Assembly (NCBI GenBank): GCA_937998865.1
Contig: CALLBR010000028.1
Span: forward strand, 1 to 53,908
Direction: 5' to 3'
Length of the DNA: 53,908 nt
From: an uncultured bacterium
GTDB taxonomy: Bacteria > Nitrospirota > Thermodesulfovibrionia > Thermodesulfovibrionales > Thermodesulfovibrionaceae
The first letter of the stretch is position 1. Every line of letters starts with the position of its first letter. This document shows, piece by piece, positions 5,552-53,908 of the stretch. Made by a program: the position numbers and the translations under genes. A model generated the notes under the pieces. It worked only from the letters and a program-made list of their open reading frames with translations, was not told where the DNA came from and made no database searches.

Positions 5552-5881
5552 ATGTCAAAGCATGCATTAAAAGAACAACTTAGAAGAGAGCGAAACATAA
5601 GGAGCAAAATATATGTTATTTTGCTCCTTATAGTATTATTTTTTTTGCTTTATGGTTTTTTCTTTGGGAATATGGGATATTTGAAGTATCGTGAACTAAA
5701 GAACAATGAAAAGAAACTTCTCACAGAAATTGAACAAATATCTCAAGTGAATAGTTCCCTTAGCAGGGAGATAGATTTATTAAAAAAGGATCAAGCTTAT
5801 TTAGAAAAATACGCAAAAGAAAAATTCGGATTAGTAAAACCAGGAGAAATGATCTTTCAATTTAAAAGTGAAGAAAAATGA
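5552..5881 (+). CDS. ftsB: FtsB/DivIC-like septum formation initiator
   Basis: A 109-residue bitopic protein: a basic cytoplasmic start (MSKHALKEQLRRER), one membrane helix at about residues 18-40, then a heptad coiled coil ending in KYAKEKFGLVKPGEMIFQF, the characteristic C-terminal block of FtsB/DivIC. In the divisome FtsB joins FtsL and FtsQ in the inner membrane. I chose the ATG at 5552, one base after the eno stop; the frame is open further upstream but that would extend into eno without reason. The eno-ftsB linkage is common in bacteria. It overlaps the next start as ATGA. Confidence 0.9.
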   Translation: MSKHALKEQLRRERNIRSKIYVILLLIVLFFLLYGFFFGNMGYLKYRELKNNEKKLLTEIEQISQVNSSLSREIDLLKKDQAYLEKYAKEKFGLVKPGEMIFQFKSEEK

Positions 5882-8010: not shown

Positions 8011-8057
8011 TACTCAATTTTTTATCATTGCTAAATTCTAAAAAATAAAATTTAATA

Positions 8058-8086
8058 TTGACTTCTAATTTTTATTTATTTTATTA
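8058..8086 (+). promoter_or_regulatory. Candidate sigma-70-type promoter for the electron-transfer pair
   Basis: TTGACT at 8058-8063 and TTATTA at 8081-8086 are 17 bases apart in the 122-base gap before the membrane-subunit gene. The surroundings are very AT-rich, so a chance match is possible. Confidence 0.45.
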
Positions 8087-8132
8087 TTAATTAAATTTAT
8101 ACTTTTATAAAAAACATTTTTTGGAGGGATTT

Positions 8133-9023
8133 ATGGATATCCTTTTAAATCTGTTTGCCTTTCTGTCTCCCCTTTTGCTTTTATTAGGTATAGGCATTAA
8201 ATTCGCAAGAATAGCTAATCAACCAGTCCACGTTAGATGGGAAATATATGACATTCCATCTGCTAAAAGAGGTGAAGCTGAACATGCAGGCTCCTATCTT
8301 GAAGAAATAGATTGGATGAAAAAGGAACCAAAAAAAAATCTACTAGTTGAGTTCGTTGAACCATTAAAGGAAATTTTTTTCCTTCATCGAGTAAAAAAAT
8401 TTAACATCTATGGATTATGGATTTGGTCATTGTTTCTTCATTGGGGAATATGGTTACTTTTTTTATGGGTCTTTCTTGTCCTTTTAAATGCAACCTTATA
8501 TTCATTTAATCTGGAGAATTTAATTTTTATAGCATACCTTTCTTATGGCTTTGGAGTATTAGGTTCTCTGGGATTATTTGTTAAGAGAATTTCAAATAAA
8601 GAGTTAAAGTTGTATACTTCTGGAATAGATTATGTAAATTTATTTTTCCTCTTCCTGCTATTTTTTACAGGATTATTGATGATTCAGTTAGATGATTATT
8701 CTAATGAGGTCCTATCTTATATGAAAGGAATAGTAAGTTTTACTTTGCAATCTGAGAACTTCTCAACTTTGACATTGCTTCACTTTTTAATCTTTGAAAT
8801 TTTTCTCTTATACATCCCCTTTTCAAAATTCTTTCACGGACCTGTAAAATTCTTCACTTTTCATAAAATTCTCTGGAATGATTCATATCAAAAGAAAGGT
8901 TCCAGGGAAGAAAAGAAAATTATGCAACAGCTAAATTACAAAGTAAAATGGGCAGCTCCTCATATTTTGCCTGAAAAAAGCTGGCTTGAAAATGCCCAAA
9001 ATACAAATTTCGATGAAAAATAA
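8133..9023 (+). CDS. Membrane cytochrome-b-like subunit (TmcC/HmcE/DsrM-like)
   Basis: A 296-residue membrane protein with about five to six hydrophobic helices and histidines placed inside or at the ends of them (FLHWGIWLLFL, LLHFLIFEIF, FFHGPVKFFTFHKILW), as in b-type cytochrome subunits that exchange electrons with menaquinone. The next gene encodes an HdrD-type iron-sulfur protein, the standard partner in the Tmc, Hmc and DsrMK complexes of sulfate reducers. I chose ATG 8133, 4 bases after the GGAGGG site, not the TTG at 8121, which overlaps that ribosome-binding site. Exact family assignment is uncertain because these subunits diverge quickly. Confidence 0.75.
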   Translation: MDILLNLFAFLSPLLLLLGIGIKFARIANQPVHVRWEIYDIPSAKRGEAEHAGSYLEEIDWMKKEPKKNLLVEFVEPLKEIFFLHRVKKFNIYGLWIWSLFLHWGIWLLFLWVFLVLLNATLYSFNLENLIFIAYLSYGFGVLGSLGLFVKRISNKELKLYTSGIDYVNLFFLFLLFFTGLLMIQLDDYSNEVLSYMKGIVSFTLQSENFSTLTLLHFLIFEIFLLYIPFSKFFHGPVKFFTFHKILWNDSYQKKGSREEKKIMQQLNYKVKWAAPHILPEKSWLENAQNTNFDEK

Positions 9024-9040
9024 CCATTAGGAGGGCGAAA

Positions 9041-10645
9041 ATGAAAAATTTAAGAGATTTTTCTAAAGAAACTCAAGATACTTTAGAAGATATAAATTTA
9101 GAAGATTTAGTCTCTCTATCTCCTTATTTAGAGGAAAAAGATGGGTTTAAAGAACTATCTGCTGACTTGAAAGATAAATACGATTTTTCTCTTGACGGAT
9201 TCACGGCATTTCCTTTTCCAATTCCTTCAGAGGAAGAAAAGGCAAAAATTGTGGAAAAATTCCTCAAGGGTATAGAGAAACTTTTAGATCCAGAATCAAA
9301 CTGGACTTTTTTAAAGCCCTTTTCTCTCTCCCTTAAATATTGTGTTAAATGCAACACTTGTGCTGAGGCTTGTCATGTTTATGTTGGCAGCGGAAGAAAA
9401 GAAATATATAGACCTAATTTCCGTTCCGAAATATTAAGAAGGATATATAAAAGATACTTTACTCCCAGTGGCAAACTCCTTAAATCCTTTGTTAGTGCTG
9501 ATATTGAAGTGAATTACTATACTATAAGAAGGCTTTTGGAGCTTGCTTATAGATGCACCTTATGCAGAAGATGCGCTCTTTATTGTCCTATAGGCATAGA
9601 CAATGGCTTGATTGCCAGAGAATTGAGAAAAATGTTTAGTCAAGAACTGGGGATGGCTCCTGTTGAGGTATACAAAAAAGGATCAAGACAGCATCTAAAG
9701 GCAGGTTCCTCCACAGGTATGGGACCTGAAGCCTTTAAGGATATTATTAAATTTATAGAAGAAGACATTCATGAAAGAATTGGCAAGAAAATAAGTATTC
9801 CCGTGGATAAAAAGGGCGCAGCCATTCTCTTACTCCATAATGGAGGAGAATATCTTGCTTGGCCTGACCATATTGCAGCATTCGCTATCCTTTTTGATTT
9901 TGCAGGAATAAATTATACATTGAGCAGCGAAACTCTTGGGTATGATGGAGTAAACTATGGAGCTTGGTATGATGACGTAGAGCTTGCAAGAATTGGCCTA
10001 AGACACCTTCAAATTGCTCATGATCTTGGAGTAAAAAAACTTGTAATTGGTGAGTGCGGACATTCTCACAAGGTATATACTATAGTTTTTGATAAGATTC
10101 TACCAGCTAGTTCACCTCTGTGGAATATTCAAAGAGAATCTTGTCTTCCCTTGATGAGAGAGATAGTAAAGAGTGGTAAGATTAAATTTGATCCTAATAG
10201 AAATAATTTTCCCGTTACCATGCATGACTCCTGTAATATAGTGAGACTCATGGGTGTTATGCAACCTCAGAGGGATGTTATACAAGCTCTTACACCTAAT
10301 ACCTTTAGAGAGATGAATCCAAATCGTTCCTATAATTATTGCTGTGGAGGTGGTAGCGGTTTTGCTATTATCAGGTCTTTGAATTTCCCCACTTGGAGAA
10401 TTAAAGTATCCTTTAGGTTGAAAACAAAACAAATTCTGGATACCTTTAGTGATGTCTTAGAGAAAGATATTCCCAAAGTTGTTATCGCTACATGTTCAAA
10501 TTGCAAAGGTGCTCTGAGAGACATTATTAAAACTTACGATCTATTTGAAAAATATAAAATTACTTATTCTGGCTTAGCAGAATTTATTGTTAATGCTATT
10601 GCAGATATTCCGCCATTTCTCAATCTGGATGAGCTACCTGAGTAA
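9041..10645 (+). CDS. HdrD/DsrK/TmcB-like iron-sulfur oxidoreductase
   Basis: A 534-residue cytoplasmic iron-sulfur protein. Two ferredoxin-like [4Fe-4S] motifs are visible, YCVKCNTCAEACHVYVG (about residue 105) and YRCTLCRRCALYCPIG (about 177). A CCG domain follows: GECGHSHK, HDSCNIVRL, YNYCCGGGSGFA and ATCSNCKGA, the ligands of the non-cubane cluster used by HdrB/HdrD for thiol-disulfide chemistry. With the membrane subunit just upstream it should pass electrons between the quinone pool and a cytoplasmic acceptor. TmcB or DsrK-type are the closest named relatives I can suggest. Good GGAGGG site 4 bases before ATG. No dsrJOP or cytochrome c gene is beside it. Confidence 0.85.
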   Translation: MKNLRDFSKETQDTLEDINLEDLVSLSPYLEEKDGFKELSADLKDKYDFSLDGFTAFPFPIPSEEEKAKIVEKFLKGIEKLLDPESNWTFLKPFSLSLKYCVKCNTCAEACHVYVGSGRKEIYRPNFRSEILRRIYKRYFTPSGKLLKSFVSADIEVNYYTIRRLLELAYRCTLCRRCALYCPIGIDNGLIARELRKMFSQELGMAPVEVYKKGSRQHLKAGSSTGMGPEAFKDIIKFIEEDIHERIGKKISIPVDKKGAAILLLHNGGEYLAWPDHIAAFAILFDFAGINYTLSSETLGYDGVNYGAWYDDVELARIGLRHLQIAHDLGVKKLVIGECGHSHKVYTIVFDKILPASSPLWNIQRESCLPLMREIVKSGKIKFDPNRNNFPVTMHDSCNIVRLMGVMQPQRDVIQALTPNTFREMNPNRSYNYCCGGGSGFAIIRSLNFPTWRIKVSFRLKTKQILDTFSDVLEKDIPKVVIATCSNCKGALRDIIKTYDLFEKYKITYSGLAEFIVNAIADIPPFLNLDELPE

Positions 10646-11431
10646 TCAAGAAGATAATTTTATTCGATGACTGTTACAATAGATATTAAATCTGTTGCCT
10701 CTTAAAAAGCCTATTAGAGTTAGCCCCACTTCTTCGGCGATTTCAACTGCCAAAGAAGTGGGAGCTGTTCTACTCACTATTATAGGAATTTTCCATTTAG
10801 CTGCCTTTAATGCCATTTCCGATGAAATTCTTCCGCTAACCAGAATTATCTTTCCTTGAAAGGGTATTTTATTAAGTATAGCCCATCCGATAACTTTGTC
10901 CACTGCATTATGTCTTCCTACATCTTCAGCAATGAATAGTATTTCCTTTGAATCTGATATGGCTGCTGCATGAATGCAGCCTGTTGTCCTATACAAATCA
11001 GATTTTAATTGGAAATCCTTGAAGAGTTTAAATAAAGTTGTCTCACTTATTGAGCAATTATCATCTATTTTAGTTTTTAAATTTCCTATAAAACTCACAG
11101 AAGCCATACATCCAGAAGTAATAGTTTTTCCCTCTAATGAAACAAATCCTTCAAGTAAAATTTTAACTTTTATTTCTTTGTCGTTGTTTTCTATTAAAAT
11201 TTTTTCTGGACACCAATCTCCCTTAAGGATATTCTCTGTCATTAAAAAGCCAGTGATAAGTTCTTTTATTTGTATAGGTGAGGCAGCTAAAGATATTACT
11301 TCTTCCTCATTTACGAAAATTTTTATCTTTTTCTCTACTGCTATTAAATCTTCAATTTCTTCGAATCCTTTAGATTGGTATTTTACAATTCTTTTCCGAT
11401 TTAAAGGTTCCATGAATTGTATTTTAATCAT
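10646..11431 (-). CDS. fdhD: FdhD-family formate dehydrogenase accessory sulfurtransferase
   Basis: A 261-residue FdhD protein, which carries sulfur from a cysteine desulfurase to the molybdenum/tungsten cofactor of formate dehydrogenase. The strongest signatures are EDVGRHNAVDKVIGWAI (about residue 167) and the N-terminal ITGFLMTENI. The segment that holds the CxxC of E. coli FdhD reads TSGCMAS here, with a single Cys108. A mogA-type cofactor gene lies elsewhere in the window. Its stop codon abuts the stop of the convergent upstream gene with no base between. The start is ATG 11431; a second ATG at 11413 is possible, and neither has a clear Shine-Dalgarno. Confidence 0.9.
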   Translation of the reverse strand: MIKIQFMEPLNRKRIVKYQSKGFEEIEDLIAVEKKIKIFVNEEEVISLAASPIQIKELITGFLMTENILKGDWCPEKILIENNDKEIKVKILLEGFVSLEGKTITSGCMASVSFIGNLKTKIDDNCSISETTLFKLFKDFQLKSDLYRTTGCIHAAAISDSKEILFIAEDVGRHNAVDKVIGWAILNKIPFQGKIILVSGRISSEMALKAAKWKIPIIVSRTAPTSLAVEIAEEVGLTLIGFLRGNRFNIYCNSHRIKLSS

Positions 11432-11502
11432 TATAATTTTTTTCTTGCAAATTATTTTAAAAAACTGCTATTCTGAAGAATAATAAACTTTAGGAGGTAG
11501 CT

Positions 11503-11823
11503 GTGTTTAGTATCAGTGAAAAAGCAGCCGAAAAGGCAAAATTAATCCTCAAAAATGAGGGAAAAGAAGGTTGGGGATTGAGAATATTCTCCACAGAAGG
11601 ATATTGTAGCCCCTCTTTTGGACTTGATATCGATGAAAATCCACAAGAAGGTGATGAAGTTATTGAAAAGGATGGTTTAAGGGTTTTTTTAGATAAACAG
11701 ACCTTTGACCTCCTTAGCGAGATTGAGCTCGACTATTACGAAGACGAAGAGCAAGAAGGATTTATCCTTAAAGGACCAATGCCTTCCTGTGGTCCAGGTT
11801 GTGGAGGAGGCTGCGGCGTTTAA
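11503..11823 (+). CDS. HesB/IscA-like iron-sulfur accessory protein
   Basis: A 106-residue protein with the HesB/IscA fold pattern: SISEKAAEKAKLIL at the start, Cys35 in the first metal-binding position, and a cysteine/glycine-rich end with Cys96, Cys100 and Cys104 (SCGPGCGGGCG). A-type carriers hold an Fe-S cluster or iron for delivery to apoproteins; the window encodes several iron-sulfur clients. It begins with GTG at 11503, fixed by an AGGAGG site 5 bases upstream. TTGCAA at 11445 and TATTCT at 11469 could form a weak promoter in the 71-base divergent gap. hemB follows after 3 bases. Confidence 0.8.
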   Translation: MFSISEKAAEKAKLILKNEGKEGWGLRIFSTEGYCSPSFGLDIDENPQEGDEVIEKDGLRVFLDKQTFDLLSEIELDYYEDEEQEGFILKGPMPSCGPGCGGGCGV

Positions 11824-11826
11824 GCC

Positions 11827-12798
11827 ATGTTTCCTCTTCATCGTCCAAGAAGGCTAAGAAAAACAGAAATCCTGAGGAAAATGGTGAGGGAGACAACCCT
11901 CACTCCTCAGGATTTTATTTATCCCATGTTTATAGTGCCGGGCAGGGGTGTTAGAAATCCCATATCTTCAATGCCTGAATGTTTTCAGGAAAGTGTTGAT
12001 GAAGCTATTAAGAATGCAAGAGAGGTTTTTTCCCTTGGCATTCCTGCAGTAATTCTTTTTGGAATCCCGGAAAAAAAGGATGAAAAAGCTACTTTTGCCT
12101 ACGATGAATCTGGAGTAGTGCAAACAGCTGTCAAGGCAATTAAAGATGCTATACCAGAACTTATAATAATTACTGATGTATGCCTTTGTGAGTATACATC
12201 CCATGGACACTGTGGAATTATAAAAAACGGTAAAATAGACAATGACTCAACTCTGGAAGTTTTAGCCCTTGAAGCTTTGTCCCATGCCAAAGCAGGAGCA
12301 GACATAGTTGCTCCTTCTGATATGATGGATGGAAGAGTTGGAAAGATTCGCAAAGCCCTTGATGAGGAAGGATTTAGTGATGTAATAATTTTATCTTATG
12401 CTGCAAAATACGCATCAGCCTTCTATGGACCTTTTCGGGAAGCTGCTCAATCAGCTCCAGCTTTTGGAGACAGACGCAGTTATCAAATGGATCCTGCAAA
12501 TCGAAGAGAGGCACTAAGGGAAGTTGCTCTTGACATTGAAGAAGGTGCAGATATAGTTATGGTAAAACCTGCTTTAGCATATCTTGACATTATCTCTGAT
12601 GTAAGAAATAACTTTCCTGTTCCAGTGGCAGCTTACAATGTAAGTGGAGAATACTCGATGATAAAGGCAGCTACAAAACTTGGATGGTTAAATGAAGATG
12701 CAGTTATGATGGAAATTCTCACAGCAATAAAAAGAGCAGGAGCAGACCTTATCCTTACCTACTTTGCAAAAAAGGCAGCCAAATTGCTTCAAAGATAG
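11827..12798 (+). CDS. hemB: Delta-aminolevulinic acid dehydratase (porphobilinogen synthase)
   Basis: A 323-residue HemB that condenses two 5-aminolevulinate molecules to porphobilinogen in tetrapyrrole synthesis. The two active-site lysines are in [15 protein letters not shown] and [10 protein letters not shown]; the metal-site cysteines of the zinc class are in [14 protein letters not shown]. Length and motifs are complete. It sits 3 bases after the HesB-like gene and 9 bases before uvrB, in one transcription unit. No strong Shine-Dalgarno is visible, which fits translational coupling. Confidence 0.97.
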
Positions 12799-12807
12799 TT
12801 TTTTTAA

Positions 12808-14826
12808 ATGGATAGATTTATCCTTCAAAGTCCCTTTAAACCAAAGGGAGATCAGCCGAAGGCAATTTCTGAGCTTGTCGCAGGAATTAAGAAAGGTAAA
12901 AGGCATCAAGTTTTGCTAGGGGTAACAGGCTCTGGAAAAACTTTCACTATTGCCAATGTAATTGCTAAAATAAACAAGCCAACTCTTGTAATAGCTCACA
13001 ATAAAACCCTTGCTGCTCAACTTTATGGAGAGTTAAAAGAGCTTTTCCCTCACAACGCTGTTGAATACTATGTGAGCTACTATGACTACTATCAACCAGA
13101 GGCTTATATTCCCGAGACCGATACATACATTGAAAAAGATGCTCTTATTAATGATGATATTGACAGAATGAGACATTCTGCAACACTCTCTGTACTTACT
13201 CGGAAAGATGTGATTGTGGTTGCTTCTGTTTCATGTATTTATGGAATTGGCTCACCAGATGATTACTTGGCAATGCACATTACCATTGAAGAAGACATGA
13301 AAACAGAAAGAGATGCCCTATTGAGAAAACTAGTTGAAATAATTTACACAAGAGCAGAAGAGGATTTCAGAAGAGGCACTTTTCGTGTAAGAGGGGATGT
13401 GATTGATATTTTTGCCTCTCACTGTCTTGATAAAGCCTACAGGATTGAGTTTTTTGATGATGAAATTGATGCTCTTTATGAAATAGATCCCCTTACAGGT
13501 AGAAAAATTAAAAGGATAAATAGAATATTCATTCCACCCAATAGTCATTGGGTTACTCCTGAACCAAGCTTAAGGAGAGCTCTTAAAAGTATAGAAGAGG
13601 AACTGGAGGAGAGAATAAGGTATTTTAAAGAAAGAGGAGAGGAGCTCTTTGCAGAGAGAATTGAAAGACGAACTCGTTTTGATATGGAACTTCTAAGTGA
13701 GTTTGGTCATTGCCATGGAATAGAAAATTACTCAAGACACCTTAGTGGAAGGCTCCCAGGAGAGCCTCCTTTTACATTGATTGACTATATTTATGCTGGT
13801 CCTTCTAAGGGAGATTTTCTTACTGTGATAGATGAAAGTCATGTAACCGTGCCACAGATTGGAGGAATGTATGAAGGAGATCGTTCAAGAAAACAAACTT
13901 TAGTTGAATATGGCTTTAGACTTCCTTCAGCTCTTGATAATCGTCCCCTTACTTTTAAGGAATTTGAGCATAGGATGAACTATGTAATCTATGTTTCCGC
14001 AACCCCTGGAGATTATGAGATTGAAAAATCCGACGGAAGAGTCATTGAGCAGATAATAAGACCAACTGGACTCATAGATCCAAAAATAGAAGTCCGTCCT
14101 GCCTCAAATCAGGTAGAAGATTTACTTGAAGAAATTCAAAAAAGAGTTAAAAAAAATGAGAGAGTTCTTGTTACAACTCTTACAAAAAAAATGGCTGAGG
14201 ATTTGACAGATTATTATATAAATCTTGGTATTAAGGCTAAATATTTACATTCTGATATAGATACACTTGAAAGAGTTGAGATATTAAGAGATCTAAGGCT
14301 TGGCAAATTTGATGTACTCATAGGAGTAAATCTTCTTAGAGAAGGTCTTGACCTTCCGGAGGTTTCTCTTGTAGCCATATTTGATGCAGATAAAGAGGGA
14401 TTTCTTAGATCAGAAAAATCTCTTATTCAGACTTCAGGTAGAGCCTCAAGAAATATAAATGGCACAGTTATATTATATGCAGACACAATGACAGATTCTA
14501 TGAGAAAGGCAATAGAGGAAACAGAAAGAAGGCGTAAAATTCAAATGGAATATAACAAAAAAATGGGGATAACTCCACAAACAGTAAGGAGCAAAATAAA
14601 AGACATTCTCGCATCAATTTATGAGAGGGATTATGTTTCCTTAGATGCACTGAAGGAAGAAGTGGAGGAATACGAAATATCAGAAGAAACTATAAAAAAA
14701 CTTGAAGCAGAAATGAAAAGAGCAGCAGAGAATCTTGAATTTGAAAGAGCAGCAGAGATAAGAGATAAGATAAAAAAACTAAAGGAAAAAATTCTTAAAA
14801 TTGGACTCATAGCAGAATCCAATTAA
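12808..14826 (+). CDS. uvrB: Excinuclease ABC subunit B
   Basis: A 672-residue UvrB, the damage-verifying helicase-like subunit of nucleotide excision repair. Walker A is [10 protein letters not shown], the beta-hairpin region reads [14 protein letters not shown], helicase motifs include DESHVT and the motif VI block QTSGRASRN, and the C-terminal UVR motif ([20 protein letters not shown]) that binds UvrC is intact. Size is standard. It is the last gene of the HesB-hemB-uvrB unit and converges with the MurU-AmgK fusion gene across a 42-base gap in which I see no terminator hairpin. Confidence 0.97.
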
Positions 14827-44828: not shown

Positions 44829-46207
44829 TCTCCACAGAATTTGATACAATTGCCGCTATTAGCACACCCATTGGAGAAGGGGGGATTGGTATAATCCGCA
44901 TAAGCGGATCTAAGTCCATATCCATAGCTTCTAAAATCTTTAAATCACCAAAAGAAAAAGACCTCTATAATTTAAAATCTCATACAATTCATTATGGTTT
45001 CATTATAGATCCAGAAACATCTGAAAAAATAGATGAAGTTCTTCTCACTATAATGCGAGCGCCTAATACCTATACAAAAGAGGATGTTGTGGAGATAAAT
45101 TGTCATGGTGGTTATGTAATTTTAAATAGAATCCTAAATCTGGTAATTAGGTATGGTGCAAGGCTTGCAGAACCTGGAGAATTTACAAAGAGAGCTTTTC
45201 TTAATGGTAGAATCGATCTAAGTCAGGCTGAATCTGTAATTGACCTAATTAGAGCTAAGACAGAGGAAGCACAAAGAATTGCTATGGAACATCTAAGTGG
45301 TAAACTTTCTGAAAAGATAAACTCTCTACGAGATTCATTAACAAGAGTTTGCGCTCATATAGAGGCTTATATTGATTTTCCAGAAGAAGACATTGATGGT
45401 TTAACAGAAAGTGAAATTGAAAGGGAAATAAGGAAAATTAATTCAGAAATAAAAGAGCTTATTGAAGGATATGAAGAGGGCAAGATTTACAGAGAAGGAC
45501 TTAAGGTAGCAATAGTGGGAAAACCAAATGTAGGAAAGTCATCCCTTCTAAATGCTCTTTCCATGAAAGACAGAGCAATAGTAACTGAAATTCCCGGAAC
45601 TACAAGAGATATCATTGAAGAATACATTAATATTAAAGGCTTACCTTTAAAAATTATTGATACTGCAGGGATTAGGCATTCCCATGATCTTGTAGAAGCA
45701 GAGGGGATAAGGAGATCTCTGAAAGCCATAGATGAAGCAGAATTGGTGTTATTTTTACTTGATATGAGTAGAGAAATTGACAGTTTAGATAAGGAGATAA
45801 TGGAAAGAGTAGGGGGAAAAAGGATTATTCTAGTCCTTAATAAAAAGGATATAAAAAGAGAGGACTTTAAAATTCCTGAAAAAATTCAAGACCAACCATC
45901 TATTGAAATTTCAGCATTAAAAGGTGAAGGCATTGATGATTTAAGAGAATTAATTTTTAGAACTTTTATTTCTGGAAAATATTCAAAGGAAGGAGTTCTT
46001 GTAACAAAGCTGAGGCATAAAATTGCTTTAGAGAATGCTTACGAAGCTCTTCACAATGCTTTGAATAGTTTTAAAAAAGGCGAGCCCTTAGAGATTACTG
46101 CCATGTATCTCAGAGAAGGGCTCAGTTTTTTAGGTCAAATAATAGGCATTGTAACTACTGAAGATATATTAAATCTTATCTTCAATGAATTCTGCATAGG
46201 TAAATGA
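44825..46207 (+). CDS. mnmE: tRNA-modifying GTPase MnmE
   Basis: A 460-residue MnmE (TrmE): the N-terminal tetrahydrofolate-binding domain (DTIAAISTPIGEGGIGIIRISG), the inserted G domain with GKPNVGKSSLLN, DTAGIRHS and NKKD, and the C-terminal CIGK with the conserved cysteine. With MnmG it modifies U34 in tRNAs. The start is GTG 44825, overlapping the yidC stop as GTGA. mnmG does not follow; the run ends here. Confidence 0.96.
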   Translation: MISTEFDTIAAISTPIGEGGIGIIRISGSKSISIASKIFKSPKEKDLYNLKSHTIHYGFIIDPETSEKIDEVLLTIMRAPNTYTKEDVVEINCHGGYVILNRILNLVIRYGARLAEPGEFTKRAFLNGRIDLSQAESVIDLIRAKTEEAQRIAMEHLSGKLSEKINSLRDSLTRVCAHIEAYIDFPEEDIDGLTESEIEREIRKINSEIKELIEGYEEGKIYREGLKVAIVGKPNVGKSSLLNALSMKDRAIVTEIPGTTRDIIEEYINIKGLPLKIIDTAGIRHSHDLVEAEGIRRSLKAIDEAELVLFLLDMSREIDSLDKEIMERVGGKRIILVLNKKDIKREDFKIPEKIQDQPSIEISALKGEGIDDLRELIFRTFISGKYSKEGVLVTKLRHKIALENAYEALHNALNSFKKGEPLEITAMYLREGLSFLGQIIGIVTTEDILNLIFNEFCIGK

Positions 46208-46220
46208 ATATCTCTTTAAA

Positions 46221-47084
46221 CTATTTCTGTTTACTCACTCCTAAAGTTTGAGTCAAAAGCTCTTCTAAAGCTTTATCATTCACTTCTATCTTATGTTTAC
46301 TCTTCAATCCTTCAATATATTTTTCGAACCATTCCTGTTGTTTCTTTGCTTTTAACTGTTCCATTAATTGTCCTTTAATCTGTTCAAATTCAATAGCAGT
46401 ACCTCTTACATCAGTAACTTTGAAGATATAAAGACCATCTTTACGATTAAAAGGCATACTGACTTGTCCTTTTTTAAGATTAAAAATTAAGTTTTCCAAT
46501 TGGGGTTCCAGTTGACCCTTTTTAAAAAATCCTAAATCACCACCGCTTCCCTTTGTTTTGGAGTCTTTTGATAATTCTTTTGCTATTTTAGCAAAATCTT
46601 CTCCTTTATCAATTCTTTCATATACTTTTTGGGCATCTTCTTGGCTACTTACTATAATTTGGCTAAGTCTTACTTCTGTTGGTTTTATAAATTGATCTTT
46701 GTTCTTTTCATAGTAGTCTTTTGCTTCATTTTCTGTAACATCTTGAATTTTTTTAATTTCTTGCTCTAAAAGCATATTTATGAGAGTAATTTTTTTAAAC
46801 TCTTCTAATCTTCTTTTGAAATCTTCAGATTTTGCAAGATTTTGTTTTTTTGCTTCTTCGTAGAGAACTTCTCTTTTAATCAGTTCATCTTTAAGCCTAC
46901 TAAAACCCTCAGGAGATGTGAGAAAGGCTTTTGTCTGAGGAGGTAAATTTTTAAGATCTTCCTGTAAATCTTTTTTTGTAATCTTCGATGAACCTGTTTT
47001 CACAATTACATCCTCTTTACTTTGACTACAGGCAAAAATTGACAGAATAAAAACCAAGAGAATAAATAGATTCAGTTTTTTCAT
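46221..47084 (-). CDS. PpiC-type peptidyl-prolyl isomerase lipoprotein
   Basis: A 287-residue SurA/PrsA-like protein. A lipoprotein signal peptide ends in ILSIFAC (lipidated Cys19). A SurA-N-like helical region is followed by a parvulin domain at about 137-230: VRLSQIIVSSQEDAQKVYER, DSKTKGSGGDLGFFKKGQL and MPFNRKDGLYIFKVTD. It should be a membrane-anchored periplasmic chaperone. It converges with mnmE over 13 bases and has no strong operon partner. Confidence 0.88.
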   Translation of the reverse strand: MKKLNLFILLVFILSIFACSQSKEDVIVKTGSSKITKKDLQEDLKNLPPQTKAFLTSPEGFSRLKDELIKREVLYEEAKKQNLAKSEDFKRRLEEFKKITLINMLLEQEIKKIQDVTENEAKDYYEKNKDQFIKPTEVRLSQIIVSSQEDAQKVYERIDKGEDFAKIAKELSKDSKTKGSGGDLGFFKKGQLEPQLENLIFNLKKGQVSMPFNRKDGLYIFKVTDVRGTAIEFEQIKGQLMEQLKAKKQQEWFEKYIEGLKSKHKIEVNDKALEELLTQTLGVSKQK

Positions 47085-47124
47085 CTAATACTCCTTTCTC
47101 AATTTTTTCTCTAATTTAACATTC

Positions 47125-47268
47125 CTATGGATTTTTTAGCAAATTAATGAGAAAACCCTTAAAATGCTCATAGAAGGTTTTTAAATCCTTTTCAAAATAT
47201 CTTTTATTTTGATGCCATACCTTTAGATAGGAACCACTAAAGAGAGCTAACTTATTTTTTATTTTCAA
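47125..47268 (-). other. Possible 47-codon reading frame after tail copy 1
   Basis: Overlapping the end of the first tail copy in another frame is a TTG-started frame reading KIKNKLALFSGSYLKVWHQN, then KRYFEKDLKTFYEHFKGF, ending in a stop at 47125. The residue composition looks protein-like, but I recognise no family, and the TTG start and poor ribosome-binding spacing are weak support. It may be the broken end of another gene. Confidence 0.25.
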
Positions 47269-47473
47269 TTATTTGGATTTCCTCCTCCGTTAATCCATAC
47301 AACTTATATACCAGTTCGTCTATCTCTCGCTCAAGGGCTGAGGTGTCGGTGTCTGGATCTTGCTTTTTGGCAGCGAGGATGCTATTAAGAATATAAAGGT
47401 GAAAGAGGAGTGATTGAAAGGATTTTAAGAAGGCTAATTGTACATATGCAATCTTGACCCATGACTTTCTCAT
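47252..47473 (-). pseudogene. Tail copy 1: C-terminal fragment of a type IIG/TaqI-like restriction-modification protein
   Basis: A 73-codon frame whose last 42 residues, from AAKKQDPDTDTSALEREIDE to LYGLTEEEIQIIENKK, are the recognisable extreme C-terminus of Eco57I/TaqI-like combined restriction-modification proteins, normally 800-1100 residues long. The rest of the protein is missing; the first 30 residues look unrelated. It starts 2 bases after the ATPase stop. Positions 47295-47332 match 53273-53310 at 37 of 38 bases. Confidence 0.75.
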
Positions 47474-47475
47474 AT

Positions 47476-49890
47476 TTATTTAGTCCAATCATACTTTAAC
47501 TTTCCACATTTGCATCTTAATTTTTTTTTGACCTCATCATAATATTTCACTGAAACTGTTTTGTTACATTCATCACAATAAAACAAATTTTTCAGTTTTT
47601 TTACATCATCCCAAAAAGCTCTACAATCACCGATACTAGCTTGAAAACTGTTGTAGTGAGAATCTACATTTCCTATAAAAAGAGAGTTGTTGAGTAACTT
47701 ATCTATAATTTCAGCAAATATGCTTTTAGAAGTTTGTTTATTCACTTTGCTTTTTAAGCAGGAAAGCATTTCATTACACATTCTTTTTTCATTTATATCA
47801 TTGCCTTTATACGGAACATAAACTTCTATTTCCTGTGAAATCTCTTTTAGAATTTTTTCTAAATATTTTCTTATCAAATTTCCTAATCCTATAGGATCAT
47901 TATTCTTTATTTTATTTTCAATAGCATATTCTAAATCGATAAGACTCTCATCTAAATGGGTACCATCTTCCGCTGACCACTTTATAGCTTGAATATACCA
48001 ATTTACGTTCCCTCTTACTAAATTCTTCATTAGTTCAAACCAATCTTTTTCGTGTGTTAAAATTATAACTTGATAATCTTTGAATTTTTCTATTATGATG
48101 TCTGCTAATCTTTTTCTATGTTCACTGTCAAAGCTTGAAACTATATCATCTAAGACAAAAAACTTATTTTCTTTATTAAATGCCTCTACTGAAGCAAGGA
48201 AAAATGCTATTCCTAAACTATTTAAATGTGATTCACTAAGATATTTTTGTGGAGGCGATGCGTTTAGATTGTGAAATTTATACTCTATTGTAAGCCCCTT
48301 TAAATCATCGTTATCTTCAACAAGTTTCACTTGAAAATCTGATATGTTTTCACCGGGGTGCATGTAATTATAATATTCAGATATTTTATCTGAAAACTGA
48401 TTTATAAATTTATCAAGTTCTTCTTTCTGTTTTTTTACAAATTCATTATAAATCAATGTCATGGATTTTAAATACTTTTCTAAAATTTCTTTTTCTTTCC
48501 TAAAATATTGTATTTCCTTATATCTTTCCCATGAAAGAGAGATTCTATCCTGTATTTCAAGGATTTTCTGTCCTTGTAATTGAAGACCTAATTCCGTATA
48601 TTTTTCATCACAATATTTAATAGTCTTATCTAATATATTCTGGTCGATCTTGATATCCTCTGGACATTTTAATTGTTCCGATCTGAATAAATCTTTTTCT
48701 ATTTCTTTCTCTAAATCATGCCACCAGTTTTTAAATGTTCCTATAAATTCCTGTAACAATATATTATCTTTGTTAGAATAAAATTCGGTTTTTTCAATAA
48801 CAGACAATAAACTCATAAAATCTTGCAAATAACTTTTTAATTCTTTTTTTAGATTCTCTAATTCATTTTTTATCTCTTTAATTGATGACAATTTTTTTAT
48901 TCGCTCATTAATCTCGCTAATTAATTCCATCTTACTTTTATTTTGAAAACATAAAGGACATTTATCTTCTTCCCATATGCGGCTCTGAATGATGTTCACA
49001 CCAATATTCCATAATTTTTCAAGAGCAATTTGTTTTATGAGCTCTATATTATTTAAGAGGTTATTGTAATTTGAACAATAATTTTGATATTTTTCATAAA
49101 ACTGTTCAATACCATTCTTTAAAGATAAGAGCTGATTTTTACTCTTTTCTAAATAATCGCGCTTTCTTATCACAATGGAGTCATCTACAGATTTAAAATT
49201 GTTTAAAAGATTGTCTATATCTTTAGTTGTAGCAATCTTGGGGAAATTTAAATCTTTTATTAATTCATTTACTTTCTGAATCAAAGCAGTGTCATCTACT
49301 ATTAACTCGCCAAGTTTCTCCAGTATTTGGCCTTCTCTTTTACTTATTTCATCATCAAATCTTTTTGTCTTAATCTTTTGAGCAATTTCATTCCGAGTTC
49401 TTTTCAAGGTGTCTCTTGTCTTTAAAACATCCTCAAGTCCTATAATTTGTGAGATTTTGTCTAATCTCACTTTTTTTGTTGCAAGAATTAGCTCTGTTAA
49501 ATTAGCGTATCTTAGAATTAAATTTTCTTGTTTTGAGTTTGAGATATACTGTGTAAAAAAATCCGAGAAATTTTGATTGGTTATTCTAAGTTCCACATCT
49601 ATTTCTTTTATATTATCTACTTTACTATCCGAAAAAAACATAGACACTGATGCTTTTTCATTATCCGAGATATGAATGTTCCGGATTGCCGTAACGCCAC
49701 CCCTTCTATCTATCTCTTCTCCAGATAAATGATCAATTTTATCATGATAAAACCATTCAATAGCGTCAGTTATACTACTTTTTCCACTACCGTTTTCTCC
49801 ATAGATTAAGCAAGATTTTGAATTTAAATTTAACTCTAACTTATTTTTTATTCCTCTAAACCCTTTTATTTCAACCTTTTTAAGTTTCAT
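47476..49890 (-). CDS. SMC/RecF-like ATPase with zinc hook and C-terminal zinc ribbon
   Basis: An 804-residue ABC-type ATPase. Walker A is YGENGSGKSS (Lys37); the arms are long coiled coils with a CPLC hook at Cys311/Cys314; a signature-like LSESHLNSLG lies near residue 555; Walker B is FFVLDD (Asp581/Asp582) followed by a switch histidine, LTHEKDW (His613). The end has CDEC and CKC (Cys772, 775, 793, 795), a zinc ribbon. The fold resembles RecF/Rad50-type and defence ATPases (AAA_15 class). Its ATG overlaps the 62-residue gene by 11 bases, in one operon with a GIY-YIG nuclease. It may sense DNA ends or phage DNA; its function is inferred only. Confidence 0.85.
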   Translation of the reverse strand: MKLKKVEIKGFRGIKNKLELNLNSKSCLIYGENGSGKSSITDAIEWFYHDKIDHLSGEEIDRRGGVTAIRNIHISDNEKASVSMFFSDSKVDNIKEIDVELRITNQNFSDFFTQYISNSKQENLILRYANLTELILATKKVRLDKISQIIGLEDVLKTRDTLKRTRNEIAQKIKTKRFDDEISKREGQILEKLGELIVDDTALIQKVNELIKDLNFPKIATTKDIDNLLNNFKSVDDSIVIRKRDYLEKSKNQLLSLKNGIEQFYEKYQNYCSNYNNLLNNIELIKQIALEKLWNIGVNIIQSRIWEEDKCPLCFQNKSKMELISEINERIKKLSSIKEIKNELENLKKELKSYLQDFMSLLSVIEKTEFYSNKDNILLQEFIGTFKNWWHDLEKEIEKDLFRSEQLKCPEDIKIDQNILDKTIKYCDEKYTELGLQLQGQKILEIQDRISLSWERYKEIQYFRKEKEILEKYLKSMTLIYNEFVKKQKEELDKFINQFSDKISEYYNYMHPGENISDFQVKLVEDNDDLKGLTIEYKFHNLNASPPQKYLSESHLNSLGIAFFLASVEAFNKENKFFVLDDIVSSFDSEHRKRLADIIIEKFKDYQVIILTHEKDWFELMKNLVRGNVNWYIQAIKWSAEDGTHLDESLIDLEYAIENKIKNNDPIGLGNLIRKYLEKILKEISQEIEVYVPYKGNDINEKRMCNEMLSCLKSKVNKQTSKSIFAEIIDKLLNNSLFIGNVDSHYNSFQASIGDCRAFWDDVKKLKNLFYCDECNKTVSVKYYDEVKKKLRCKCGKLKYDWTK

Positions 49891-50068
49891 TTTTTATCTC
49901 CTCATCTAATAATTTATCAATCATATTTTTAACATATGTTTCTGTAAATTTCTTCGTTCTATACAATTCCTTCAATTTATTTGCTAAATTTTTATCAACA
50001 TCTTGGATTGAAGTTATGCTTTCAAAGAACTCTTCCAAAATTTTTTCTCCAGACTTTATTTCACTCAT
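49880..50068 (-). CDS. Small helical protein of a putative defence operon
   Basis: A 62-residue acidic/basic helical protein starting MSEIKSGEKILEEFFESI. I choose ATG 50068 because AGGAGGTG lies 6 bases before it; an earlier in-frame ATG at 50092 lies within the ribosome-binding region. No family is recognised. It overlaps the nuclease gene before it by 8 bases and the ATPase gene after it by 11 bases, so it is strictly coupled to both and could be an adaptor. Confidence 0.7.
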   Translation of the reverse strand: MSEIKSGEKILEEFFESITSIQDVDKNLANKLKELYRTKKFTETYVKNMIDKLLDEEIKNET

Positions 50069-50537
50069 TTTTTTCACCTCCTGTTTTTTCAAAATATTTC
50101 CAATTTATCTCAAGTTTAAAATCAAAGTTTTCATGAATAATTTGAAAACCAGTTTTATTGTTGCATATAGGATATATTCCATAATTATTAACAAAATCTA
50201 AAATAAAAAAACTTTCAAGGTCCTCAATTCTATAATTCCATATGCTTTTTAAAACTTCAAAATTTATGTGTGTAAAGTAAAGTTCGTCAAGTTTTCTATA
50301 ATTAAATAAGCCTATATTTCCTGATTCTCCGTTCCAATGCTGAATTAATCTCTTGCCAATACTATTAGTCTTTTTTTCGCTCATTCCAATGTATATTAAC
50401 CTTGATTTTCCAAAAGGATATTGAATTTCGTTTTCTTTTAAGAAAATAAAATAAAGGCCACATATTCCATAAAGGTTTTTGATATTTGATGGCTCTATTT
50501 TTTTGGAATTGCTAAAATTTATAATGTACTTCTTCAT
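50061..50537 (-). CDS. GIY-YIG nuclease-like protein
   Basis: A 158-residue protein with the pattern of a GIY-YIG nuclease: CGLYFIF (Tyr29 of GLY), RLIYIGMS (Tyr49 of YIG), KRLIQHW with Arg63, then Glu108 in EDLESFFILDF and Asn126 in YPICN. This order and spacing agree with the catalytic Tyr/Tyr/Arg/Glu/Asn set. There is an insertion between GLY and YIG. No DNA-binding domain is attached. It is the likely effector of the operon with the ATPase; that is inference. Spacing of 11 bases from the WYL-like gene. Confidence 0.75.
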   Translation of the reverse strand: MKKYIINFSNSKKIEPSNIKNLYGICGLYFIFLKENEIQYPFGKSRLIYIGMSEKKTNSIGKRLIQHWNGESGNIGLFNYRKLDELYFTHINFEVLKSIWNYRIEDLESFFILDFVNNYGIYPICNNKTGFQIIHENFDFKLEINWKYFEKTGGEKNE

Positions 50538-50548
50538 GTTATATTATT

Positions 50549-50845
50549 TTATAACTCGCAAAAAATTATTGGTATTCTCGAATCTCCTTTTTTATATCCA
50601 GGACGAGGCTCAGAAAAAATTTCATCAGTGACTTGTAAATTTGAAATTTTATCGACAACATAGAGCCTCCAAAAAGGTTCTTTTCCAGACGAACTATACC
50701 CTCCCACTTGATATGCGCATAAAACTTCATTGCCTGTATTTTTATGTATTCCATAAGTATGAGGTTCCACAATTCTATCGTATCCCTCATAATTAAATTT
50801 AATTACCTTCCTATTTTTAATCGCTTCACAAATAAGATTATTCAT
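50549..50845 (-). CDS. WYL-domain-like protein
   Basis: A 98-residue protein resembling a lone WYL domain: ICEAIKNRKVIKFNYEG, then RIVEPHTYGIHKNTGNEVLC, AYQVGGYSSSGKEPFWRLY and VDKISNLQVTDE. WYL domains bind nucleic acids or nucleotide ligands and often regulate defence systems. GGAGGT lies before the ATG. It is the first gene of the four-gene set and its ribosome-binding site touches tail copy 2. There is no helix-turn-helix. Confidence 0.7.
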   Translation of the reverse strand: MNNLICEAIKNRKVIKFNYEGYDRIVEPHTYGIHKNTGNEVLCAYQVGGYSSSGKEPFWRLYVVDKISNLQVTDEIFSEPRPGYKKGDSRIPIIFCEL

Positions 50846-50857
50846 TTTTTACCTCCT

Positions 50858-50926
50858 TCAATTATTCTTTATCTCCTACTCCATAAGCCCATATAGCTTG
50901 TACAACTGCTGGTCTATATAATGCAA
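50858..50926 (-). pseudogene. Tail copy 2: degenerate restriction-modification C-terminus
   Basis: Read on the minus strand the stretch gives IDQQLYKLYGLME, stop, EIKNN, stop, which aligns without gaps to IDELVYKLYGLTEEEI of tail copy 1, with TAG in place of one GAG codon. At base level 50887-50917 matches copy 3 at 23 of 31 positions. It is too short and broken to function. Confidence 0.7.
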
Positions 50927-50954
50927 TTAGTCTATAAAAAAAGTTTTTATCAAA

Positions 50955-53216
50955 TCAATTTCGATTTGATTCACATAAAGCATCATAATGTTCTTTATCT
51001 TTTTTTTCTATTGTTTCAAGAACACATTTAACACAAGTTTCCATCTCGTTAATATCTGGAAATTTTTGCAAATGTTCTGGGTTTTCTTCGTGTGAATATT
51101 CATCAAGGATTTTCAAAGTCGTCTGTTTTTCTTTCAAATCAATATCCGCAAAATATTTTCCACATTTATCTTTAAATTTTTTTCCATCAGGATATTTTTG
51201 AAATAAATATGCTTCCAAAAATCGCCTTGCGATGTTGGGTAGTATATATAATAACTCAAAATTAGACTTGTCTTTAGATTCATTATATTGCTTTAGAATG
51301 CTAAACAAATAATTGTATTCTGATTTAAACTTTCTCAGAACATCTGGTAGGTTTTCAATTATTGTAAATTTGTCATTATTAGATGTTATTTTTTTAATTA
51401 AATAGTAATTTTCTTTATCTCTTTTATTTTGTTTGTTAGGTGTACCATCAGGATCACTTTTTACTAAATCCTTTAATAAATTGAAGAAATCAAATTTGTG
51501 AGTTGTAATAAATAATTGTTTACAATTTAAAATCTTTTCAGCAAGAAAACCATAAACTTTAAAGGTATGATTGCTGTCTAAACTCGAAACAGGGTCATCA
51601 ATGAAGACAATGGATTCAGATAAATTAAAGTCTTTTTCTTCCAATCGTACAAAGAAATAAATAAGGGCAATAATGTTTTTTTCACCAGTACTCAAATTTT
51701 TTGCAATTTCAATATCTCTGTAAATTTGATATTTTCCGTTATCTAAAAGTTTTAATTTTAATTTATCATCATTAAAAAATTGCGTTAAATAATAATTTAT
51801 TTTCTCTGCTCCAAGTGCCCCTGATTTGATTTGACTGTTGATTTCATTTATTTTCCTTTCAATTTCATTTTTTTTATTTTTTAATTGTTTAATCTTTTTA
51901 TTATAACAATCCAACAGTCGGACACGGGCAAAATATTTTATTTCATCAACTGCTTTTGCTGCATGATGATTCTTTATTTTTTCTTTAGCTTGACTTTTTT
52001 CTTTTTCAAGGTTTTCAACTTTTTGGTTGTTATCTGCAATAATTTTATTTATTTCATTAATTAAGTTTTCAATACTTGTTTGGTTACTATTGATATCTTC
52101 CAAAACCAATGCATCAAAGGGTTTTTCTCTTTTCTCTTTGAGTTTGTTCAACAAACCCTCTAATGAATAAGTATAATTTTTTAATTCAGACAGTAAAACT
52201 CGTAGTTTTTCTTCGTATTCTTTCTGATAACCTGGAAAAAATCTGGCTTTATCGGGTGTTTGAAATCTTTCAATATCGTTTTTATGGTTATTTATTTGCT
52301 TTTCTTGGCGATCTATCTGATTAATCAATTGCTCAAATTCATCGGAAAAATGTTTGTTCAATCTTTCTAATAAATCTTCTGGTAATCTGTTCCCACAAAA
52401 CTGGCAGGTTGCTTCATTTTTATGAAGATTTATACCTTCCCATACCCAAGTACTTAATTTAGGATTATCTTTTAATTTTTCAATAACTTGTTGAACAGTA
52501 ATTTTTTTTGTTAAAATATTTTCGACCTCATTAAAATACTTATTGAGTTTTAGCTGCATTGATATTGTAGGTAACATTTCGTAGTGTGTTGAAATTCTTA
52601 TGGTAGTGAGTAATTGATTATATTCTTCATCTTGTAATATCAAATTTCTGTAATTATCTCTTATTCCATTTATTTTTTCCTCAAGTTCATTTTTATCAAA
52701 TTCTTTAGGATTTGTGATGCCAAGTATACTTCTCATATTACTTGCTTTATCTGTAAGGAATTGGTCTTTATGCTTTTCGTGACTTTGTTTTTTCTTTACA
52801 ATTTCCTTTAAATGTTTCTCTTGTTCATCTTTTTCTTTTATCAGGTTATTAACAGTATCTTCTAACTCTATTGACTCCTTACTTAGTAATAAAACCGGAT
52901 TGATTTCATGTTTATCATCATTCCATCTAAAATTTTCCTCAATAAAATCTTCATTAAAGACCCGAATATTAAAATCTTGGCCGATGTTTATTTCCGTTAT
53001 TTCATCGCTTTCTGTTTTTAATATGAATGAAACACTTTCAAAATCAGGGTTTAGTCTTTTATCCTCCAAAAATTTAAATATTCTTGATAAAGTTGTTTTA
53101 CCAGAATAATTCCAACCATAGAAAAAATTATATCTTTTGAATTCATTACAATTTCGTAACCAGGTAAAATCCTTAAATGTACCTAAATTTGATATTTTAG
53201 CTATTTTCTTAATCAT
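50955..53216 (-). CDS. rloC: RloC-like anticodon nuclease (AAA_13 ATPase)
   Basis: A 753-residue protein of the PrrC/RloC type. Walker A is FFYGWNYSGKTTLSRIF (Lys40); long coiled coils carry one CQFC hook (Cys271/Cys274), the zinc hook that separates RloC from PrrC; the signature is LSTGEK (508-513), Walker B SIVFIDDP (Asp540/Asp541), then TTHK (His573). The C-terminal RRFLE with Arg664/Glu668 and His709 fits the Arg-x3-Glu...His triad of the anticodon nuclease. RloC cuts tRNA after DNA damage or phage attack. Translation is probably coupled to the tail-copy-3 frame, which overlaps the start. It lacks the usual type I hsd neighbours within the window. Confidence 0.82.
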   Translation of the reverse strand: MIKKIAKISNLGTFKDFTWLRNCNEFKRYNFFYGWNYSGKTTLSRIFKFLEDKRLNPDFESVSFILKTESDEITEINIGQDFNIRVFNEDFIEENFRWNDDKHEINPVLLLSKESIELEDTVNNLIKEKDEQEKHLKEIVKKKQSHEKHKDQFLTDKASNMRSILGITNPKEFDKNELEEKINGIRDNYRNLILQDEEYNQLLTTIRISTHYEMLPTISMQLKLNKYFNEVENILTKKITVQQVIEKLKDNPKLSTWVWEGINLHKNEATCQFCGNRLPEDLLERLNKHFSDEFEQLINQIDRQEKQINNHKNDIERFQTPDKARFFPGYQKEYEEKLRVLLSELKNYTYSLEGLLNKLKEKREKPFDALVLEDINSNQTSIENLINEINKIIADNNQKVENLEKEKSQAKEKIKNHHAAKAVDEIKYFARVRLLDCYNKKIKQLKNKKNEIERKINEINSQIKSGALGAEKINYYLTQFFNDDKLKLKLLDNGKYQIYRDIEIAKNLSTGEKNIIALIYFFVRLEEKDFNLSESIVFIDDPVSSLDSNHTFKVYGFLAEKILNCKQLFITTHKFDFFNLLKDLVKSDPDGTPNKQNKRDKENYYLIKKITSNNDKFTIIENLPDVLRKFKSEYNYLFSILKQYNESKDKSNFELLYILPNIARRFLEAYLFQKYPDGKKFKDKCGKYFADIDLKEKQTTLKILDEYSHEENPEHLQKFPDINEMETCVKCVLETIEKKDKEHYDALCESNRN

Positions 53217-53373
53217 AATTTTCCTCCCTTAACTTTGTCCCTTTTACAATTTCAATTTCTTCATCTGTAAGCCCATACAACTTATATACCAGTTCGTCTA
53301 TTTCTCGCTCCCAGTGGGGTGGTATCGGATTGTGGTTTTTATTTTTTATTACGTAAATATAATCTAAAAGCAC
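53209..53373 (-). pseudogene. Tail copy 3: restriction-modification C-terminal fragment coupled to rloC
   Basis: A 54-codon frame from GTG 53373 reads LLDYIYVIKNKNHNPIPPHW, then EREIDELVYKLYGLTDEEIE and IVKGTKLREE, the C-terminus of a type IIG/TaqI-like protein, including the typical PPHWEREID. An in-frame TGA lies two codons before the GTG, so the rest of the protein is missing. The stop overlaps the rloC ATG by 8 bases, so if translated it would couple to rloC. It shares 37 of 38 bases with tail copy 1. Confidence 0.7.
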
Positions 53374-53408
53374 TAATCAAAATTAAAGGCACTTAGTTAA
53401 TCATTAAT

Positions 53409-53908
53409 TTAATCAAATATTTTTTGTCCTCCTTGAGAATTATCTTCAAGATATTTTAATTTACGAATGTTGTAAAACTGATTTAAGTATCTCACTCCGT
53501 CATCTATAGTTATTTTCTCTCTTGGGAAAAATCTGATTAAAAAATGTTTTTTTACCCAAGCATCTTTATAATAAGTATATGAAGTAGCAATTTTAACTTT
53601 TTCTGAAATAATTTCTATTAAAGGTTCACGGATTTTAGAATTATTTGATTGTTTAACTCCATGAATAATGTTTGTAATTGCACCCATAAGAGCATCTACG
53701 AGTTGCAACATATTAGATTCTATTAATATTCTGTGATCTTTTGGTAAAAAAGTAACTTTAGGACAGGAGAAAGAGATTTTATCCTCAGATTTTGATATTT
53801 TGTGAATTATGTACCAAGGGAAATACTTATGTTTTTTTTGTTGACCTTGTTCATGATATATATTCTCAATAATTACTTCATCATAATTATAAAAAAAAGT
53901 TTTAATAC
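53409..53908 (-). CDS. Partial gene at window edge, DUF3800-like
   Basis: The frame is open from the window end to the stop at 53409, so the 5' part lies outside. The visible 166 residues read DEVIIENIYHEQGQ at the start, then SNMLQLVDALMGAITNIIHG, and end in NSQGGQKIFD. The block LQLVDALMGAI resembles the C-terminal QLADxxxGAI of DUF3800 proteins, an RNase H-like family often found in mobile or defence regions. The match is weak. A start inside the window at 53711 is possible but would leave conserved-looking sequence untranslated. Confidence 0.6.
   Translation of the reverse strand, partial: IKTFFYNYDEVIIENIYHEQGQQKKHKYFPWYIIHKISKSEDKISFSCPKVTFLPKDHRILIESNMLQLVDALMGAITNIIHGVKQSNNSKIREPLIEIISEKVKIATSYTYYKDAWVKKHFLIRFFPREKITIDDGVRYLNQFYNIRKLKYLEDNSQGGQKIFD

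Follow-up and report, generated by a model that had tools for sequence, protein, structure and literature searches.

A predicted RloC anticodon nuclease encoded between type IIG tail repeats

What does the gene at positions 50955–53216 (minus strand) of this contig encode, and what do its surroundings say about how such a gene is kept and passed on? The stretch analysed, here called the window, is the complete 53,908-bp contig C28, and for that reason the upstream side of the island holding the gene cannot be read past the window's right end. Enzymes of the RloC family are bacterial self-sacrifice enzymes that cut tRNAs upon DNA damage or phage attack. The best explanation of our data, to which we assign a probability of about 0.83, is that the gene encodes an RloC anticodon nuclease that needs no type I restriction partner, and that it lies between copies of the C-terminal tail of a type IIG enzyme.

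The gene, hereafter rloC, opens with ATG and is predicted to encode a 753-residue RloC-family protein, an assignment that draws on the open reading frame, the AAA_13 and PDC-S06 profiles and an alignment of relatives. By family, the product would comprise an ABC ATPase, a zinc-hook insert and a C-terminal nuclease domain. The Pfam profile AAA_13 covers residues 11–721 (E 3.4e-135) and the PADLOC profile PDC-S06 covers residues 1–750 (E 5.6e-176). The PADLOC profile for PrrC gives a weak match (E 9.7e-10) over residues 477–643 only, ending before the Arg-Glu-His triad discussed below. Conservation was assessed in a 22-row alignment comprising the window protein, seven sequences from related genomes (L004–L009 and L020, where L005 represents the C-terminal portion of a disrupted gene), two proteins from Thermoflavifilum and Ignavibacteria MAGs (L014 and L015), eleven plasmid proteins and one from a phage (L025, a Streptococcus phage Javan105 protein annotated as RloC). 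A second alignment of 20 rows left out L005 and L025.

The Walker A motif GWNYSGKT (residues 34–41; 53094–53117, minus strand, as for all motifs here) keeps G34, G39 and K40 in 21 of the 21 rows that cover it. The CQFC motif, a putative zinc hook (residues 271–274; 52395–52406), is placed between Walker A and the ABC signature, within the insertion dividing the ATPase domain, and both Cys residues are conserved in all 22 rows. The signature LSTGEK (residues 508–513; 51678–51695) has L508, S509, G511 and E512 invariant in the 20-row alignment, as are D540, D541 and P542 of the Walker B/D-loop region IVFIDDP (residues 536–542; 51591–51611). His573 (51498–51500), likewise invariant in 20 rows, is the switch-type His. 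The same usage of this motif name is found in PMC2610378.

Within the putative nuclease domain, the triad comprises Arg664 (51225–51227; 22 of 22 rows), Glu668 (51213–51215; 21 of 22) and His709 (51090–51092; 21 of 22), with Ser708 just before the His (20 of 22), and all three triad residues are invariant in the 20-row alignment. From E668 to H709 there are 41 residues (40 between), and the corresponding spacing is 38–47 among the 21 rows with a complete triad. Across residues 590–753, seven columns only are kept in at least 20 of the 22 rows (L627, E633, N661, R664, E668, S708 and H709), which places the triad and S708 among just seven near-invariant positions of the last 164 residues. The sole exception to the triad is the Javan105 protein (L025:2914-5175), which has Asp at the Glu and His columns, owing either to misalignment or to a change of its catalytic residues; with neither E nor H in place there, it shows that annotation as RloC is by itself no guarantee of the triad. 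The first-pass annotation had read a CQFC hook, all ATPase motifs and the Arg664-x3-Glu668…His709 set from the window alone. Each is present as described and is conserved across these alignments, and the triad residues occupy equivalent columns throughout the family rather than the non-equivalent positions that would have spoken against the reading.

Davidov and Kaufmann (2008; PMC2610378) characterise RloC through its ABC ATPase motifs, an insert with a CX2C hook, a length of 658–897 residues and a C-terminal Arg-X3-Glu-X36-52-His motif, often with Ser before the His. For GkaRloC of Geobacillus kaustophilus the same paper gives the triad as Arg692, Glu696 and His737, with an E-to-H distance of 41, and reports from mutation that in vivo ACNase activity depends on each of these residues. 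It gives PrrC a length of 341–416 residues and a Glu324–His356 pair (E-to-H 32), and finds just 8 of 72 RloCs linked to type I or type III loci. The window protein does not fit PrrC, having 753 residues with CQFC against 341–416 without a hook, and a spacing of 41 against 32. It was correctly noted in the first pass that the spacing exceeds that of PrrC. As an oddity it falls away, GkaRloC also having 41, and on the same ground we rejected the spacing as the mark of a divergent nuclease. The position outside a type I locus, which had been presented as unusual, proves typical of RloC on the published count, and the missing locus was likewise rejected as an anomaly, given those 8 of 72. Because spacing and non-type-I location are both normal for RloC, the window gene is, as far as sequence can tell, a plain RloC and one more member of a known family. 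That the protein is an RloC we hold with high confidence on the motifs and alignments, and the original RloC-like reading stands, since every published hallmark that sequence can decide is present.

The host assembly (1.75 Mb, 99.9% complete) contains no match to HSDR_N anywhere, and its single match to Methylase_S (HsdS-like) is in a frame truncated where contig C8 ends (G000:C8:53603-54130, L028). No hsd genes are seen beside the window rloC, where the upstream side ends at the contig end. At E <= 1e-3, 10 of the 101 related genomes (host genome counted) carry a relative of rloC, as do, at 1e-30, 8 of 395 genomes of the phylum; a close-clade search of 391 genomes of the class of G404 recovered G404 alone. 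They are common on plasmids (161 records, 115 of them with at least 80% query coverage), and no relative was found on viral contigs. An annotated type I gene is present in one of 12 plasmid or phage rloC neighbourhoods (L046; flanks of 3–6 kb).

Two further copies from the same genus can be described. In G002 the gene is broken, with residues 152–750 and 1–116 about 5 kb apart on opposite strands and each part adjoining copies of the same IS3-like ORFs (L026, G002:C1:806000-825000, about 5637–14068), an arrangement that reads as an insertion followed by an inversion. In G001 (L027, G001:C14:118000-134000) a RhuM-Fic gene lies directly downstream of the relative, and this rloC also adjoins genes for a PLD/SNF2 helicase and a type IIG enzyme, in an order unlike that of L014 and L015. 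RhuM and Fic/Doc neighbours are noted in PMC3710099, which assigns the nuclease domains of PrrC and RloC to the HEPN superfamily.

The immediate setting of the gene in the window is defined by three direct copies of a type IIG C-terminal end, all on the minus strand, with a consensus near ID.LVYKLYGLTEEEI.IVEG. Between the end of tail 1 (53239–53370) and the rloC ATG lie 22 nt, and the frame of this tail terminates within the overlapping ATGATTAA. Tail 2 (50867–50917) is degenerate, with one in-frame stop, and is weak on its own (E 0.003); it begins 37 nt past rloC and ends 21 nt ahead of the next ORF. Tail 3 (47258–47395), at the far end of the island, shares 85% identity with tail 1 across 62 nt, adjoins a PpiC-type gene and closes the island. 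The window rloC therefore sits in a repeat-bounded unit. The upstream type IIG fragment of the first-pass annotation is one of these three repeats: it is type IIG-derived as claimed, and consists of the C-terminal tail only, with an open frame of 165 residues beyond it (53409–53906, minus strand), cut by the contig end. That frame was rejected as type IIG, since it has no Pfam match and resembles an ORF in G010 that also precedes a tail (30% over 104 residues, E 5e-14).

Between tails 2 and 3, positions 47476–50845 hold a same-strand run of three genes that looks like a separate small defence operon. A 98-residue WYL-like ORF (50549–50845, minus strand; WYL E 0.0013, below the Pfam cut-off) follows tail 2, and next to it are a 158-residue ORF with a weak GIY-YIG likeness (50061–50537, minus strand; GIY_YIG_2 E 0.006, below the Pfam cut-off) and an 804-residue SMC/Rad50-like ATPase with a CxxC motif (47476–49890, minus strand; SMC_N E 1.6e-25; LmuB-like according to PADLOC). 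Rfam gave no match in 46000–53908.

Tails also accompany rloC elsewhere. A tail ending no more than 25 nt from the rloC start is seen in 5 of 22 neighbourhoods (the window, L014, L015, L053 and L054), and the remaining 17, of which five are chromosomal and 12 from plasmids or phage, have no tail. The two closest relatives of the window gene, L014 and L015, both have helicase and type IIG genes upstream, and in both rloC begins within about 15 nt of a type IIG gene or a tail-carrying gene. Unlike these, the window rloC retains the tail only. In L014 a complete helicase and type IIG pair is followed by rloC 12 nt on, with another tail behind it; in L015 the order is a DUF3644 gene carrying a tail, then rloC, then another tail. 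In the DUF3644 protein (L015:6738-7982) the type IIG tail is in frame at the C-terminus, and the type IIG gene beside it has an end of its own without a match to the tail profile. In G081 (L053) a tail precedes rloC, and in G037 (L054) one lies directly before rloC and further tails follow after more ORFs. Tails stand on both sides of rloC in the window, L014 and L015, and also in L054, there with one extra gene intervening downstream. The available text of PMC2610378 and PMC3874168 makes no mention of type IIG tails beside RloC.

To see how far this pattern extends, a tail profile (A2; 47 positions, 8 rows from five genomes) was searched against 101 related genomes (E <= 0.01) and 149 genomes of the class of G404 (E <= 0.001), 250 in all, with the profile's own source genomes, three of the 101 and one of the 149, kept in the counts. 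Matches were found at 120 places in 56 of the 101 genomes and at 142 places in 67 of the 149. Tail-bearing frames shorter than 200 residues, termed orphans, number 77 and 75 in the two sets, frames of at least 600 residues 35 and 57, and the rest 8 and 10. We see 34 and 45 pairs of tails within 5 kb on the same strand (79 in total) and none on opposite strands in either set, against about 0.6 and 0.6 expected from random scatter at assumed genome sizes of 2.5 and 3.6 Mb; at 10 kb there is one opposite pair. Orphans within 15 kb of a same-strand long type IIG frame lie downstream of it in 12 and 24 cases and upstream in none (36 of 36). Two results run counter to the array pattern. Of the orphans, 46 among the 77 and 38 among the 75 stand alone, without a neighbour inside 5 kb, and tails are almost missing from plasmids, where the tail query matches 3 of 72,556 records, none of them with two places, so that no arrays are seen there.

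The genes between tails are varied. G010 has eight tails in 13.5 kb (G010:C1:1647307-1660765), and the units between them include Mrr_N proteins, a Schlafen/AlbA protein and an RNase HII-like protein; AriA/OLD-like ATPases lie between tails in L015 and L057, and HicA-, zeta- and PIN-like ORFs, recognised by eye, in L079–L081. Most of the seven G010 cargo proteins lack a strong PADLOC defence match, so the label 'defence-like' cannot be extended to every unit. On these sequence matches, type IIG tails punctuate same-strand runs of small, often defence-like genes. No description of such arrays was found in the open-licence PMC literature, as judged from titles and the beginnings of abstracts, and among the ORFs of the array loci, most of them judged by eye, none was recognised as an integrase.

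Junctions were studied for 38 orphan tails in 19 loci, chosen for holding tails. An ORF of at least 90 residues opens at −15 to +60 of the tail end in 17 of 38 cases, against 7.8% at random positions (p 8e-10), and an open frame of at least 90 residues ends near the tail start in 17 of 38, again against 7.8% (p 9e-10). The ORF start was taken as the first ATG; without this rule the comparison (17 of 38 against 39% at random positions) is uninformative. The association is a tendency, because 21 of the 38 orphan tails have no such ORF on a given side. In the same tail-biased loci, 34 of 38 type IIG matches outside long frames end within 60 residues of the C-terminus. Tails resemble each other more within a locus than between loci (0.777 against 0.655; 0 of 2000 label shuffles), though single tails are often matched best elsewhere (L014, L015, L054 and L079). 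A 253-residue cargo family precedes a tail in both L015 and G010.

How the tails arose can be read in two ways, between which we see the balance as about even. According to the first, to which we give rather less than even odds, the 3' end of the type IIG gene is a general docking point for arrays of compact defence or toxin genes, with RloC as one exchangeable unit. A unit would consist of one or more genes plus a copy of the last ~20–45 type IIG codons; the tail would provide homology for recombination, and its final codons would provide a ribosome-binding site to the next unit. Such exchange would help explain how RloC spreads without a type I partner. Several tails finish in GAAGGAG-like letters immediately ahead of an ATG, which could be a candidate ribosome-binding site.

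The second reading, which comes close to an even chance, holds that the tails are scars of decay only, left by piecemeal loss of type IIG genes whose last codons persist where they coincide with the point at which translation of the following gene begins, and that nothing docked or moved there. Stop codons in some tails, their variable left ends and the 17 of 38 orphans with an ORF opening at the tail end all fit this view. So does L054, where at about 11015–11240 the tail before rloC is fused in frame to residues that resemble, by eye, the start of a PLD/SNF2 helicase, as an internal deletion would leave; the join suggests that a helicase and type IIG pair was deleted. Against scarring stand the series of tails that lie downstream of a type IIG frame which is still complete, the direction being downstream in 36 of 36 cases, and the greater likeness of tails within loci. 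A comparison of L015 with L057 (from G009) also counts against it: these loci have in common a type IIG gene (73% at the amino acid level), the first tail (77% at the nucleotide level) and an OLD-like ATPase (54% at the amino acid level), and only L015 carries rloC and another tail in the interval from that tail to the ATPase. The two loci also differ in the gene ahead of the first tail.

The nearness of type IIG genes raises a further alternative, namely that rloC is tied to restriction much as PrrC is to type Ic systems, with the helicase and type IIG enzyme holding or triggering the nuclease, and that the window copy has lost, or is separated from, this partner. We consider this unlikely. 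The helicase and type IIG genes just upstream of rloC in L014 and L015, those just downstream in G001, and the tail before the window gene as a type IIG remnant would all agree with it. However, PMC3874168 reports that DNA breaks activate AbaRloC of Acinetobacter baylyi even in hosts deficient in restriction-modification, tblastn of the helicases from L014 and L027 and of the type IIG proteins from L014 and L015 finds no partner in the stretches available from G026, G098 and G366, and the window rloC frame is intact with no visible partner.

An RloC that needs no type I partner remains the reading we prefer. By analogy with its studied relatives, we infer tRNA cleavage, a DNA-break trigger and an antiphage role for the window protein. 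During phage attack, for example, its ATPase would respond to DNA that is linear or broken; together with the hook it would control the nuclease, which would cut tRNA anticodon loops and so stop translation. GkaRloC excises the wobble nucleotide. An ABC-HEPN RNase with a substrate other than the tRNA anticodon, such as mRNA, rRNA or phage RNA, is an improbable variant: other HEPN RNases do cut mRNA, according to PMC3710099, but the proven tRNase GkaRloC has exactly this triad spacing. Structural searches had little to say on the C-terminal domain. An AlphaFold2 model of the window protein built with L014 and L015 (3 of the 22 sequences) has a mean pLDDT of 43.8, and in this model long helices flank CQFC on both sides; a single-sequence PDB search gave no useful match, and a profile search found ATPase heads and coiled coils only. 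A non-nuclease AAA_13 protein, acting in DNA repair or as a structural ATPase, would suit a nuclease fold that finds no support in that model and no relative in the PDB, but is very improbable given that, across the 22 diverse sequences, the triad belongs to the seven best-kept columns out of 164 at the C-terminal end.

The window thus adds one more RloC, in a genome without detectable HSDR_N, to a family already known apart from type I loci, and the setting may matter more than the protein itself. If the tails are true junctions, they would offer a sequence handle on uncharacterised defence or toxin genes between two tails, help to explain why defence genes pile up in tight clusters on one strand, and lead one to expect that recombination between the short repeats adds and removes such genes. 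Should they be scars only, they would still record which genes, RloC included, once stood behind type IIG enzymes.

As regards known systems, the setting recalls integron-like gene cassette arrays, which share with it serial small units, direct repeats, a single strand and a position downstream of one anchor gene. It differs in its repeat, which is the coding 3' end of a type IIG gene and varies in where it begins on the left. Among profiles, PADLOC PDC-S06 matches the protein over its full length, and is in its library a candidate defence group with no described mechanism. PrrC of the E. coli EcoprrI locus has the same ABC ATPase and C-terminal triad in the same order, but it is half the size, lacks a zinc hook, has the shorter E-to-H distance and maps to a type Ic hsd locus. 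The closest likeness is to the studied RloC proteins, GkaRloC and AbaRloC, with which the window protein shares architecture, size class (its length falling within the published range), the CX2C hook, the R-X3-E…SH triad and independence from type I linkage, and with GkaRloC the exact E-to-H spacing. No difference in the protein is visible by sequence; what sets the window gene apart is that it is flanked by type IIG tail repeats.
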